Assembly (NCBI RefSeq): GCF_000337575.1
Contig: NZ_AOIM01000036.1
Coordinates: 62,001-126,000 of the forward strand
Reading direction: 5' to 3'
Source: Natrialba hulunbeirensis JCM 10989
GTDB taxonomy: Archaea > Halobacteriota > Halobacteria > Halobacteriales > Natrialbaceae
DNA length: 64,000 bases
Position 1 is the stretch's first letter, and each line of letters starts with the position of its first letter. Positions 42,117 through 53,271 of this stretch are shown in pieces. A program made the translations under genes and the position numbers. The notes under the pieces are model-generated. The model saw nothing but the letters and a program-made list of their open reading frames with translations. It was not told the DNA's origin and searched no databases.

Positions 42117-42587
42117 CTACAGCTCTTCGAGCGAGCGCAGTTTCTGCTCGACAGCCGGCGGCGCAGCACTCGGGCCGTCGCGGACGCGGTGGTCGGGAAT
42201 CAAAATTGGAGCCGGATTCTCGTCGAGCGCGGTCCGAACCAGAATGATGTCGTCCTGATCGTCGGGGTCGAGATCGGGCGTCATCTGTGTAAGCGTGGCG
42301 ACGTCGACCTGATCACCGTACGGAATCGACTGCACTTGTTCGAGTACGGCGCGCTGGTCGGTCGGAATCGTCAGTGCGACCTGCACGTCGTCGAACGTCA
42401 CCGGTTCGAGACCATCCAGGTACTCGAAGAGCTGATCGAGTACGGGGTGGTCGGTTTCAGCGCCGTCCTCGGGTACGTCCGGAAAGGAAACGGTCAGCAC
42501 GCGCCCGCTGGCCGCACCGAGCTGTACGTACCGGTCGAGATACGTCGACTCACGCGCGTAGATCCCGGCGTCCGTAACGTCCTCCAT
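42117..42587 (-). CDS. MGMT-like protein lacking the acceptor Cys
   Basis: 156 residues from the ATG at 42587. The C-terminal half matches the MGMT/ATL DNA-binding domain (VLEQVQSIPYGDQ, then NPAPILIPDHRVRDGPS), but the alkyl-acceptor motif PCHR reads PDHR (Asp132). It therefore cannot transfer alkyl groups in the usual way. Bacterial and archaeal alkyltransferase-like proteins have Trp or Ala at this site and bind lesions without repair; Asp here is unusual. It is divergent from trpC. Confidence 0.75.
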   Translation of the reverse strand: MEDVTDAGIYARESTYLDRYVQLGAASGRVLTVSFPDVPEDGAETDHPVLDQLFEYLDGLEPVTFDDVQVALTIPTDQRAVLEQVQSIPYGDQVDVATLTQMTPDLDPDDQDDIILVRTALDENPAPILIPDHRVRDGPSAAPPAVEQKLRSLEEL

Positions 42588-42662
42588 ACGCGGCCTGTAG
42601 GAAACACGGCCTTGAATAGTCGCCGGTCGTCGCCATGAGCGGCGGCGGATGGCGCAACACTT

Positions 42663-42690
42663 TTGTACAGATGAGTACGTTGATGTACAA
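42663..42690 (+). promoter_or_regulatory. TGTACA-type operator upstream of trpC
   Basis: Two copies of TGTACA form the outer arms of a perfect inverted repeat (TTGTACA at 42663-42669 and TGTACAA at 42684-42690), and a third GTAC lies between them, at exactly 10-base spacing (65, 75, 85 in the last two digits). The site ends two bases before the trpC ATG. TGTACA is the TRP box bound by TrpY in Methanothermobacter, so a tryptophan-responsive operator is a strong inference. Confidence 0.65.
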
Positions 42691-42692
42691 CA

Positions 42693-43564
42693 ATGACTTC
42701 TGGTACGGAGCTCGCACCACCGGTGCAATCCATTCTCGCAGCGGCCTCCGAGCGCGCTGGAGAGGGATGCAACCGGGAACGGGCACCGCTCGATGTCGAC
42801 GCGCGGTCGTTTCGCGACGCGCTCGCGCAAACTGAACGAGACGGCCGGGTACCGGTTATTGCCGAGGTGAAACCGACGAGTCCGACGACGGACGGCACGC
42901 GCGAGGACGACCCCGCCGAACTGGCCGAGGCGATGGTTGCAGGTGGTGCGACGGCGATTTCGGTCCTCACCGAACCGACTCACTTCGGCGGCTCGCCGGA
43001 CGCATTGCAGCAAGTCCGAGCGGCCGTCGACGTCCCCGTCCTCCGGAAAGATTTCATCCTCGAGGAGGCAAGTCTGGACGTGGTCGAATCCGACCTGGTC
43101 CTCTTGATCGCCCGGTTCGTCGACAACCTCGACGAGCTCGTGGCAGCCGCTCGCGAGCGCGGCTTCCAGCCGCTCGTCGAGGTCCACGACCGCGAGGAGC
43201 TCGCTGACGCGCTCGAGGCCGGTGCGACGCTCATCGGAGTGAACAATCGTGATCTCGCAAAACTCGAGGTCGACCTCGGAACGTTCGAAACGATTGCACC
43301 GCACGCGAGGCGACTCTGTCGCCTCGACGAGTCGAGCGGTGGAACCGAGAGACCGGACCCGGACGACGTGACGCTAATCGCCGAGAGCGGGATTTCGAAG
43401 CCTGCAGACGTCCGTCGGATGCGTGAGGCAGGTGCAGACGCACTGCTCGTCGGCAGTGCGATCATGGATCAGGACGGAAACGGAGACGGCGACGTGACGG
43501 CGAACACGCGACGACTGGTAGAAGCAGTGGAACCGACAGCAACGACGGAGACACGCACACAGAC

Positions 43565-43568
<4 letters not shown>
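42693..43568 (+). CDS. trpC: Indole-3-glycerol-phosphate synthase
   Basis: 291 residues. The barrel motifs [10 protein letters not shown] (catalytic Glu/Lys), [29 protein letters not shown] and [12 protein letters not shown] follow in normal order. It closes the indole ring of carboxyphenylamino-deoxyribulose phosphate. The first gene of trpCBA, it overlaps trpB by four bases (ATGA at 43565-43568). The C-terminal 25 residues are a Thr/Glu tail. Confidence 0.95.
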
Positions 43569-44832
<1,264 letters not shown>

Positions 44833-44836
<4 letters not shown>

Positions 44837-45717
44837 CCGGTGAACAGACTGGGGCGATAGAGAGCGACACCGAGGCCGCCATCCGCGAGGACCACCCCGC
44901 GCTCATTACGTATATTACCGCGGGAGACCCGTCGCTCGAGGACACCAAGGAATACGTCGAGGCCCTCGACCGCGGCGGGTCGGACCTGATCGAACTCGGC
45001 CTGCCGTTTTCCGAGCCAATCGCCGAGGGGCCGACCATCCAGGCCGCAATCAACCGCGCGCTCGACGCCGGGACGACGCCCGCGCGGTTCTTCGAACTCG
45101 TGGACGAACTCGAGACGGATGCGCCGTTGCTGGTGATGACGTACTACAACATGATCCTCCAGTACGGCTCTGAACCCGATGTCCGCCCGTTCGTCGAACG
45201 CGCGGCCGACGCGGGCCTCTCGGGGATCATCGTTCCCGACCTGCCCGCGGAGGAGGCGGACCCGCTCCGAGACGCCTGCGACGACCACGGCCTCGACCTC
45301 GTCTTCATCGTCGCGCCGACGACCGCCGGCGAGCGCCTGAACCGGATCATGTCCCAGGTCTCGGGCTTCGCTTACGTCCAGGCCCGCCTCGGGACCACCG
45401 GCGCGCGGGCGGATGTCTCCAACGCAACCCACGACAGCCTGACCCGACTCTCGGCGTACGACGTCCCCAAGGCCGTCGGATTCGGCGTCAGCGAGGGTGA
45501 CCACGCCGCCGAGATCATCGACGCCGGCGCGGACGGCGTCATCGTCGGCAGCGCGCTCGTTGACATCATCGCCGAACACGGCACGGGCGACGCGCCCGCG
45601 GCGGCTGCACTCGAGTCCAAGGCGCGCGAACTCAAGCGAGGGGCGCGCCGCGGAGGCGAGCAGGGGAACGGACACGAGCAGGGGCGGGAAGAAGCACCGG
45701 AACCAGAACAGCCATAA
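44833..45717 (+). CDS. trpA: Tryptophan synthase alpha chain
   Basis: 294 residues. The signature [20 protein letters not shown] (with catalytic Glu) and the [27 protein letters not shown] and [13 protein letters not shown] segments are diagnostic. It splits indole-3-glycerol phosphate to indole. The last 35 residues are an acidic, Gly/Gln-rich tail. It is the final gene of the trpCBA operon. Confidence 0.96.
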
Positions 45718-45741: not shown

Positions 45742-46545
45742 ATGACTACAGCAGGACTCACAGCACGACTGAATCGGATCGGAACAGACGACTCGTACGT
45801 AATTATCCCGATGGACCACGGGCTCACGATGGGGGCCGTCCAGGGACTGAAAGACATCGAATCGACGATCGACGGCGTCACTCGCGGCGGCGCGGACGCC
45901 GTCCTCACGCAGAAGGGAATCGCCCCGCGTGTTCACGACAACACGAACGGGAAGGGCTACATCGTCCACCTCAACGGCTCGACGACGATCGGTCCGGACG
46001 AGCAGGATAAACGCCTAACTGGGACCGTCGAAGAAGCGATTCGCGCCGGTGCGGACGCCGTCTCCTTCCATATCAACGTTGGCTCTGATTACGAACCTGA
46101 ACAGACGAGCCAGCTTGCAGACGTGACGCGAAAAGCCGAGCAGTTCGGGATTCCGGTACTCGCGATGGCCTACGCCCGCGGTCCGGGCGTCGACTCCGAG
46201 GACCCTGAGGCGCTCGGTCACGCGGTCCGTCTCGCCGAAGAAGTCGGTGCGGATATCGTCAAGACGGGCTACAGCGGCGACGCCGAGAGCTTCCAGCACG
46301 TCGTCGAATCGACTCGCCTGCCGGTCGTCATCGCCGGTGGCTCGAAAGGAACCGACCGCGAGACCGTAGAGATGGTCCGTGGCGTCATGGACGCCGGCGG
46401 TTCTGGCGTCTCGATGGGCCGGTCGATCTTCCAGCACGAGAACCCCGAAGCCATCACCCGCGCCGTCTCTGGCGTCGTTCACGACGACCTGTCGACGGAG
46501 GATGCGCTTGCAGCGGCCGGGCTCGCGATCGAAGTCGAACACTGA
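45742..46545 (+). CDS. 2-amino-3,7-dideoxy-D-threo-hept-6-ulosonate synthase (aldolase-type)
   Basis: 267 residues. IIPMDHGLTMG near the start, VSFHINVGSDYEPEQ, GADIVKTGYSGD (Schiff-base Lys) and VIAGGSKG define the archaeal DhnA-type class I aldolase. Together with the type II dehydroquinate synthase (here at 52003) it supplies dehydroquinate in archaea lacking DAHP synthase. It follows trpA by 24 bases. A fructose-bisphosphate aldolase role is the alternative, but the aromatic-amino-acid context favours the first. Confidence 0.85.
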   Translation: MTTAGLTARLNRIGTDDSYVIIPMDHGLTMGAVQGLKDIESTIDGVTRGGADAVLTQKGIAPRVHDNTNGKGYIVHLNGSTTIGPDEQDKRLTGTVEEAIRAGADAVSFHINVGSDYEPEQTSQLADVTRKAEQFGIPVLAMAYARGPGVDSEDPEALGHAVRLAEEVGADIVKTGYSGDAESFQHVVESTRLPVVIAGGSKGTDRETVEMVRGVMDAGGSGVSMGRSIFQHENPEAITRAVSGVVHDDLSTEDALAAAGLAIEVEH

Positions 46546-52002: not shown

Positions 52003-53271
52003 ATGACACGATCCGTCTGGATCAAAGCCGACGACACCGTCGGCGACTGGGACGACCGCCGTGCGCGCATCACGGCCGCACTCGAGGCCGGCGCGGACTG
52101 GGTACTGGTCGACGAGAAGGACGTCGAACGCGTGCGCGAACTCGGTGACATCAACGTCGCCGCCTTCCGTACTGATGGCGACGTGACGCTGGTCGACGAC
52201 GCCGAAGCCGACACCGAGAGTTCTGATGTCGACGAACTCGAGGAGATCGACAACGTCGACGATTCCGAAAATCTCGATGTCGACATCACTGAACCGACCG
52301 ATGGGACGGCTGCCGACGCCGTCATCGTCGGCAAGGACGGCGAAGGTGATGCCACGATCGATCTACCGAACGACTTCTCCGGCTCGGCCGACCTCTCGAC
52401 GCTTCGTCGCGACGGCGACAAGGACATCGATCGCGGCGCGTACGTTCGCATCCTCGACACCGAGTACGAGGCGTTCGCCGAAGCCGCCGCCGAGGAGGGT
52501 GAGTACACCATCGTCATCGGCGAGGACTGGACGATCATCCCACTCGAGAACCTGATCGCTCGCATCGGCGAGGAGACCGACCTCGTCGCGGGCGTTACCA
52601 GCGCCGAGGAGGCCAAAACTGCCTTCGAAACGCTCGAACTCGGCTCCGATGCGGTCCTCCTCGATTCCGACAACCCCGACGAGATCAGACGAACGGTCGA
52701 GGTTCGCGACGAGGCAGAACGAGAGTCGCTCGACCTCCAGTACGCTGAAGTGACCGATGTCGAGCAGATCGGCAGTGCGGATCGGGTCTGTGTCGACACC
52801 GGGAGCCTCCTCGAGCACGACGAGGGAATGCTCGTCGGGTCGATGAGCCGCGGCCTCGTCTTTGTCCACGCCGAGACGGCCGAGTCGCCGTACGTCGCCT
52901 CGCGACCGTTCCGGGTCAACGCGGGTGCGGTCCACGCCTACGTGCGAACACCCGAGGGCGGCACGAAGTACCTCTCGGAACTCCAGAGCGGTGACGAGGT
53001 GCAGGTCGTCGATACGAACGGCAACACGCGTGAGGCAATCGTCGGCCGAGTCAAGATCGAGAAGCGGCCGATGTTCCGTGTCGCCCTGGAAACCGACGAC
53101 GGCGACCATATCGAGACACTCCTCCAGAACGCCGAGACGATCAAGGTCGCAACCGGCGACGGACGGAAAGCAGTCACCGATCTCGCGGCGGGCGACGAAC
53201 TCCTGTTGTACTACGAGGACACGGCACGCCACTTCGGCGAAGCGGTCGAGGAGAGTATTATCGAGAAGTAA
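52003..53271 (+). CDS. 3-dehydroquinate synthase type II (archaeal)
   Basis: 422 residues from the ATG at 52003 (MTRSVWIKADDTVGDWDDRR). The archaeal DHQS II signature is present: WTIIPLENLIA, DTGSLLEHDEGMLVGSMSRGL split over two segments, and FRVNAGAVHAYV. It converts the ADH synthase product to dehydroquinate. An Asp/Glu-rich insertion (DESSDVDELEEIDN-like, about residues 65-105) is a haloarchaeal feature. The matching aldolase is at 45742, and dehydroquinase at 53892 acts next. Confidence 0.9.
   Translation: MTRSVWIKADDTVGDWDDRRARITAALEAGADWVLVDEKDVERVRELGDINVAAFRTDGDVTLVDDAEADTESSDVDELEEIDNVDDSENLDVDITEPTDGTAADAVIVGKDGEGDATIDLPNDFSGSADLSTLRRDGDKDIDRGAYVRILDTEYEAFAEAAAEEGEYTIVIGEDWTIIPLENLIARIGEETDLVAGVTSAEEAKTAFETLELGSDAVLLDSDNPDEIRRTVEVRDEAERESLDLQYAEVTDVEQIGSADRVCVDTGSLLEHDEGMLVGSMSRGLVFVHAETAESPYVASRPFRVNAGAVHAYVRTPEGGTKYLSELQSGDEVQVVDTNGNTREAIVGRVKIEKRPMFRVALETDDGDHIETLLQNAETIKVATGDGRKAVTDLAAGDELLLYYEDTARHFGEAVEESIIEK

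Follow-up and report, generated by a model that had tools for sequence, protein, structure and literature searches.

A helically phased GTAC array before trpC as a probable TrpY-type operator of haloarchaeal tryptophan operons

The window analysed here, a whole stretch of 64,000 nucleotides from Natrialba hulunbeirensis JCM 10989, carries a four-gene tryptophan operon that opens with trpC and closes with aroA' (Table 1). In Halobacterium salinarum the aroA' homologue, OE1472F, belongs to the trpCBA operon, as stated in an excerpt of a published study (PMC4162585). The gene divergent from trpC probably does not belong to the trp control system, and aroB', which serves below for comparison, lies elsewhere in the window.

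Table 1. Positions of genes and promoter features in the 64,000-nucleotide window.
Feature	Position	Strand	Evidence or remark
Divergent gene, weak match to the methylguanine-DNA methyltransferase DNA-binding domain	42117..42587	-	PF01035, E = 1.5e-5, below gathering score
BRE-like element (CGCAACAC), trpC core promoter	42653..42660	+	CGCAA directly precedes the TATA-like element in almost every one of the 56 promoters aligned
TATA-like element TTTTGTA	42661..42667	+	3' end common to box 1; ~30 bp before ATG
Predicted operator array, three GTAC boxes at 10-bp spacing	42663..42690	.	one copy in the 4.16-Mb genome; kept before trpC in relatives
Box 1 (TTGTACAG), position -28	42665..42668	.	GTAC in 49/56 trpC promoters
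Box 2 (GAGTACGT), position -18	42675..42678	.	GTAC in 39/56; GTCC in 10
Box 3 (ATGTACAA), position -8, beside the start codon	42685..42688	.	GTAC in 47/56; GAAC in 5
trpC, indole-3-glycerol phosphate synthase, first operon gene	42693..43568	+	haloarchaeal TrpC NF041303, 392.1 bits, cut-off 380
trpB, tryptophan synthase beta	43565..44836	+	TIGR00263, 595 bits, cut-off 392; overlaps trpC stop
trpA, tryptophan synthase alpha	44833..45717	+	TIGR00262, 250 bits, cut-off 102
aroA' (2-amino-3,7-dideoxy-D-threo-hept-6-ulosonate synthase), fourth operon gene	45742..46545	+	TIGR01949, 358 bits, cut-off 299
aroB'	52009-53268		

The sequence immediately before trpC (window 42661-42695) reads TTTTGTACAGATGAGTACGTTGATGTACAACAATG. 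A first-pass annotation had described three GTAC centres spaced 10 bp apart and ending two bases before the trpC ATG, with TTGTACA and TGTACAA forming a perfect inverted repeat around the central GTAC. Both descriptions are exact: the bases CA separate position 42690 from the ATG, and the outer arms pair perfectly over 7+7 bases with the central GTAC in the middle, while the inner spacers (AGATGA and GTTGAT) are asymmetric. The array sits on the predicted core promoter, with box 1 on the TATA-like element and box 3 ending just before the ATG. The TATA-like element reads TTATGTA in many relatives, and CTTWTGTAC is conserved; mean column information across the trpC promoters was 1.32 bits at -40..-33 compared with 0.26 bits at -60..-41. 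We take the CGCAA-containing element of this promoter to be the BRE. The distance from the TATA-like element to the ATG fits a probably leaderless trpC transcript, and box 3 would cover its predicted start site.

A fourth position in the same phase falls on trpC bases +2..+5 (window 42694-42697). It reads GACT in this genome and GAAC, GGAC or GACC in 38 out of 56 genomes, owing to the frequent use of AAC or GAC as second codon of trpC; it may be a box inside the open reading frame or simply reflect codon preference.

We then searched for the pattern GTAC-N6-GTAC-N6-GTACAA, which matched once in the whole 4.16-Mb genome. Given the GTAC frequency of the window (258 per 64 kb), chance would give 0.004 triples at the array spacing per 64 kb and about 0.27 per 4.16 Mb, so a lone genomic occurrence is unremarkable and it is position and conservation that are decisive. 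Nine one-mismatch triples were found elsewhere in the genome and showed no connection with tryptophan genes. One of them (L382, G000:C35:292467) lies directly 5' of the start of an open reading frame whose product resembles a TetR-type regulator by eye, and is probably an unrelated autoregulatory site.

Among haloarchaea the pattern was found in 35 out of 61 genomes, while a reversed control pattern had no matches in the same 61. All matches precede trpC with two exceptions: one lies before trpB (in G059; see below) and one in a GTACA repeat of low complexity (G006:C59). To describe conservation at the level of single bases we used trpC upstream regions from about 15 haloarchaeal families, which yielded 56 usable promoters (G044, G050 and G059 gave no trpC start codon, and G046 was excluded from the counts). 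At least one box was present in 53 of these promoters, at least two in 48 and all three in 34. Every GTAC found between -60 and -1 (135/135) fell exactly at -28, -18 or -8, where about 13 would be expected at random. The GTCC variants of box 2 occur mostly outside the genome's own family, and the outer boxes persist there. Conservation in related haloarchaea, on which the first-pass annotation had staked its proposal, thus extends to all three positions across about 15 families. A chance origin of the GTAC cluster, as the expectation of 0.27 per genome might suggest for this genome taken singly, is refuted by this conservation across families: the boxes occupy the same base positions before trpC and are essentially absent elsewhere, and we give the idea practically no credence. 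Judged by this comparison of sequences, the GTAC array is a real control element, far beyond chance.

The same 10-bp code was found in the second tryptophan operon, trpDFEG, whose promoters carry GTAC, G(N)NC, AGAC or ACAC, and GTAC at offsets 0, +10, +20 and +30. Two distant genomes (G044 and G059) combine a perfect GTAC as third trpD box with a decayed first box (GAAC or GCAC), an argument that each of the four phased positions counts. Relative to the trpC boxes, those of trpD are shifted with respect to both the TATA element and the start codon, and the 10-bp register is identical. A single inverted repeat was also considered as the operator unit and was rejected, because trpD needs boxes at 0, 10, 20 and 30 and the inner spacers of the trpC array are asymmetric. 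Upstream of the trpD boxes, a block reading TAATTGAAGGTTTCGAATC is strongly conserved in many genomes (e.g., L098), possibly as the core promoter of a divergent gene. No regulator gene was seen in the neighbourhood of trpDFEG.

In two deep haloarchaeal lineages (G046 and G059), trpC has no array before it, and the array is found instead at the trpC-trpB junction, before trpB (at about 1501-1526 of locus L053 in G059 and about 1502-1515 of locus L112 in G046). The moved array has its own upstream BRE/TATA-like sequence, which in G059 reads GCGCAAGACAGAAGGCTAATGTACAGAGAAGTACATCGATGTACAAG. The array therefore acts like a unit of promoter plus operator rather than like something that belongs to trpC itself.

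An array that overlaps a TATA element with box 1 and a start site with box 3 could be nothing but a conserved strong core promoter (TATA, spacer and initiator) with no dedicated repressor, all the more as other haloarchaeal core promoters, such as that of aroB', are also conserved. Comparing the two promoters in the same 24 genomes, we found that their cores are equally kept (1.46 bits for aroB' and 1.47 bits for trpC at -40..-30), whereas the spacers at -29..-1 differ (0.99 vs. 1.46 bits). In a set of 27 aroB' promoters, none had a GTAC. The displacement of the trpD boxes from the TATA element and start codon, with retention of the 10-bp spacing, also speaks against a plain core promoter, as does the fact that the trp operons are known to be regulated (PMC4162585, as excerpted); we consider this explanation highly improbable.

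The two operons that carry boxes appear to be the regulated ones. According to the excerpt of PMC4162585, growth of H. salinarum without aromatic amino acids induced the trpCBA-OE1472F and trpDFEG genes (12.5-fold for OE1472F, i.e., aroA'), while aroB' (OE1475F) changed 1.5-fold and was reported as unchanged; the step from our boxes to H. salinarum rests on conservation. The same excerpt gives inductions of 3.6-6 fold for aroK, aroA and aroC. A larger haloarchaeal regulon was considered and rejected, given that aroB' has no boxes and that the nine one-mismatch triples showed no tie to trp. A search for KRTGTAC-N5-TGNACAT with one mismatch allowed returned trpD plus one coding match only.

TGTACA is the binding box of TrpY in the trp promoters of Methanothermobacter, which is why the first-pass annotation had proposed a similar code for haloarchaeal trpCBA. 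To find a candidate regulator, we located methanobacterial genomes through an McrA query sequence, took the gene divergent from trpE (product about 167 aa) and reached through it the NCBIfam model NF053754, 'TrpY family transcription regulator' (cut-off 180), which it matches. The genome studied here encodes its own match at G000:C32:1932-2420 (234.7 bits). Each of the 50 near-complete haloarchaeal genomes tested has a gene that scores above this cut-off, with one copy in nearly all and extra matches in a few that were weak fragments; Haloferax volcanii, from the control set, also matches the family, as do 190 out of 197 genomes of the phylum. No plasmid copies of TrpY were found. The protein encoded here and its methanobacterial counterpart are 35% identical end to end and keep a VDRR stretch, and each has a weak C-terminal ACT match. 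Going by the family, the N-terminal part of haloarchaeal TrpY is predicted to bind DNA; a search for a PDB sequence match to TrpY returned none.

In this genome trpY lies near hisA/hisB and is unlinked to trp (L255, 1920-7424). In several relatives the sequence just 5' of trpY resembles the end of hisB. With hisB/hisA as neighbours of its gene, TrpY may have a histidine-related role or ligand. No 10-bp GTAC array was found before trpY in 50 haloarchaeal genomes, with isolated GTACs in 14 of them. Autoregulation of trpY through an array of its own was considered and rejected, the promoter of trpY having none.

A comparable layout was found in methanogens. GTACs in the methanobacterial trpY/trpE intergenic regions lie 30, 30, 20, 20 and 20 bp apart, with GTAT, ATAC or GAAC at 10-bp offsets (loci L213, L214 and L216-L219). 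Two genomes of one methanogen genus (f19, a family we read as Methanosarcinaceae), with one TrpY each, contain only two perfect triple arrays, one before a TrpB-like gene (TIGR01415) and one before aroA' (TIGR01949). Nearly all of the 80 non-haloarchaeal genomes of the phylum have TrpY, but only 7 had a perfect triple array and 73 had none, meaning that a perfect triple is no universal mark of TrpY. Elsewhere in the phylum, triples precede a gene of the lactate-permease family and one for an unassigned membrane protein; others are close to a gene without assignment or within what looks like coding sequence. Those before the permease-family and membrane-protein genes come from a single non-haloarchaeal family (L337, G082:C1:1254430, and L338, G101:C6:20578), and the two genes are possible aromatic amino acid transporters.

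Taken together, this comparison supports both the proposed TRP-box-like code for trpCBA, with trpDFEG sharing its 10-bp register, and the analogy with TrpY, for which a family member is present in every near-complete haloarchaeal genome and the methanobacterial GTACs are spaced at multiples of 10 bp; haloarchaeal use of the code by TrpY is itself predicted from sequence. We thus think it likely that the array is a TrpY/TRP-box operator of trpCBA-aroA', lying across the TATA box and the start site, through which the operon would be repressed when tryptophan is plentiful. The array itself, its conserved register, its specificity for the two trp operons and the occurrence of TrpY are seen directly in the sequences; TrpY as the binder, tryptophan as the ligand and repression as the effect are the parts of this reading that we infer. 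Specifically, three TGTACA-type boxes one helical turn apart would span the promoter from the TATA element's 3' end, through the interval between TATA and start, to the start site. With tryptophan plentiful, TrpY would occupy adjacent boxes along the same face of the helix, so that TBP, TFB and RNA polymerase could neither reach the TATA element and the start site nor assemble there; with tryptophan scarce, it would leave and the operon would be expressed. The trpDFEG operon would be controlled by TrpY too, via the four-box version. Our confidence is no higher because trpY lies apart from trp and has no array of its own, and because the TrpY homologue of Thermococcus kodakarensis does not regulate trp (PMC6737238).

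The array may alternatively be a real trp operator that is read by another protein: LrpA2 or another member of the Lrp/AsnC family, or else a homologue from the TrmB family like HAH_0923, suggested in Haloarcula hispanica. LrpA2 (OE2776F) was induced 14.9-fold in H. salinarum without aromatic amino acids, as given in the excerpt of PMC4162585. Both trp operons of Har. hispanica need TrmB for induction without TrmB binding nearby, so that an additional factor has been postulated (PMC10817205), and the lack of linkage between haloarchaeal trpY and trp also leaves room for another binder. Against this, the 10-bp GTAC code matches the methanobacterial trpY/trpE layout and the arrays that precede aromatic genes in a methanogen genus with TrpY, TrpY is universal among the near-complete haloarchaeal genomes, and the Har. 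hispanica study detected neither a TrmB site nor a TrmB motif close to the trp operons (PMC10817205). We found no link between LrpA2 and the GTAC boxes in this analysis. On balance we regard a different binder as unlikely, and retain TrpY as the candidate.

Going further, it is quite possible, and we put it forward tentatively, that methanobacteria, other methanogens and haloarchaea share from their ancestor a single helical-phase operator code that TrpY reads. Such a code might have moved among trpE, a TrpB-like gene, aroA', trpC, trpB and trpD and among box numbers, its 10-bp register kept because TrpY molecules line up cooperatively along one side of the helix, while haloarchaeal TrpY might have become unlinked, non-autoregulated and dedicated to two trp operons.

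The TrpY system is known from a methanogen, and its haloarchaeal use is unassigned in PMC10817205, in PMC6737238 and in the excerpt of PMC4162585. As for the switch of the haloarchaeal trp operons, an unknown extra factor was postulated in the first of these and LrpA2 merely suggested in the last, as excerpted. What is gained here is a predicted operator at base resolution, a candidate regulator that every near-complete haloarchaeal genome tested encodes, and the prediction of a regulon with two operons. Moreover, the trade-offs between boxes in a fixed 10-bp register, together with the move from trpC to trpB, make a clean natural data set for studying an archaeal regulator that reads tandem sites along a core promoter.

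The system can be compared with several known regulators. LrpA2 was proposed as a regulator in H. salinarum on account of its induction, with no target site given in the excerpt of PMC4162585. TrmB, known from Halobacterium and Haloarcula, affects the Har. hispanica trp operons indirectly (PMC10817205). Tar (TK0271) of T. kodakarensis likewise controls aromatic amino acid operons in a euryarchaeon, but it is an activator and a different protein whose site is TGGACA-N8-TGTCCA, and the TrpY homologue of that species plays no part; haloarchaeal TrpYs sit in other branches of the TrpY family, and were noted as homologues without known function (PMC6737238). The closest comparison is with the TrpY/TRP-box system of Methanothermobacter thermautotrophicus (trpY-trpEGCFBAD). 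There, trpY lies by the trp operon and is autoregulated (PMC6737238), whereas here it lies beside his genes with no array of its own; the trp genes here are divided between two operons with three and four boxes; and box 3 abuts a probably leaderless start codon, haloarchaeal TrpY binding being predicted. The separation of trpY from trp weakens strict membership of the TrpY/TRP-box system, although adjacency is unnecessary for the mechanism. The two systems have in common GTAC-centred boxes in the trp core promoter, phasing of about 10 bp (seen in the methanobacterial relatives) and a TrpY-family gene in the same genome.
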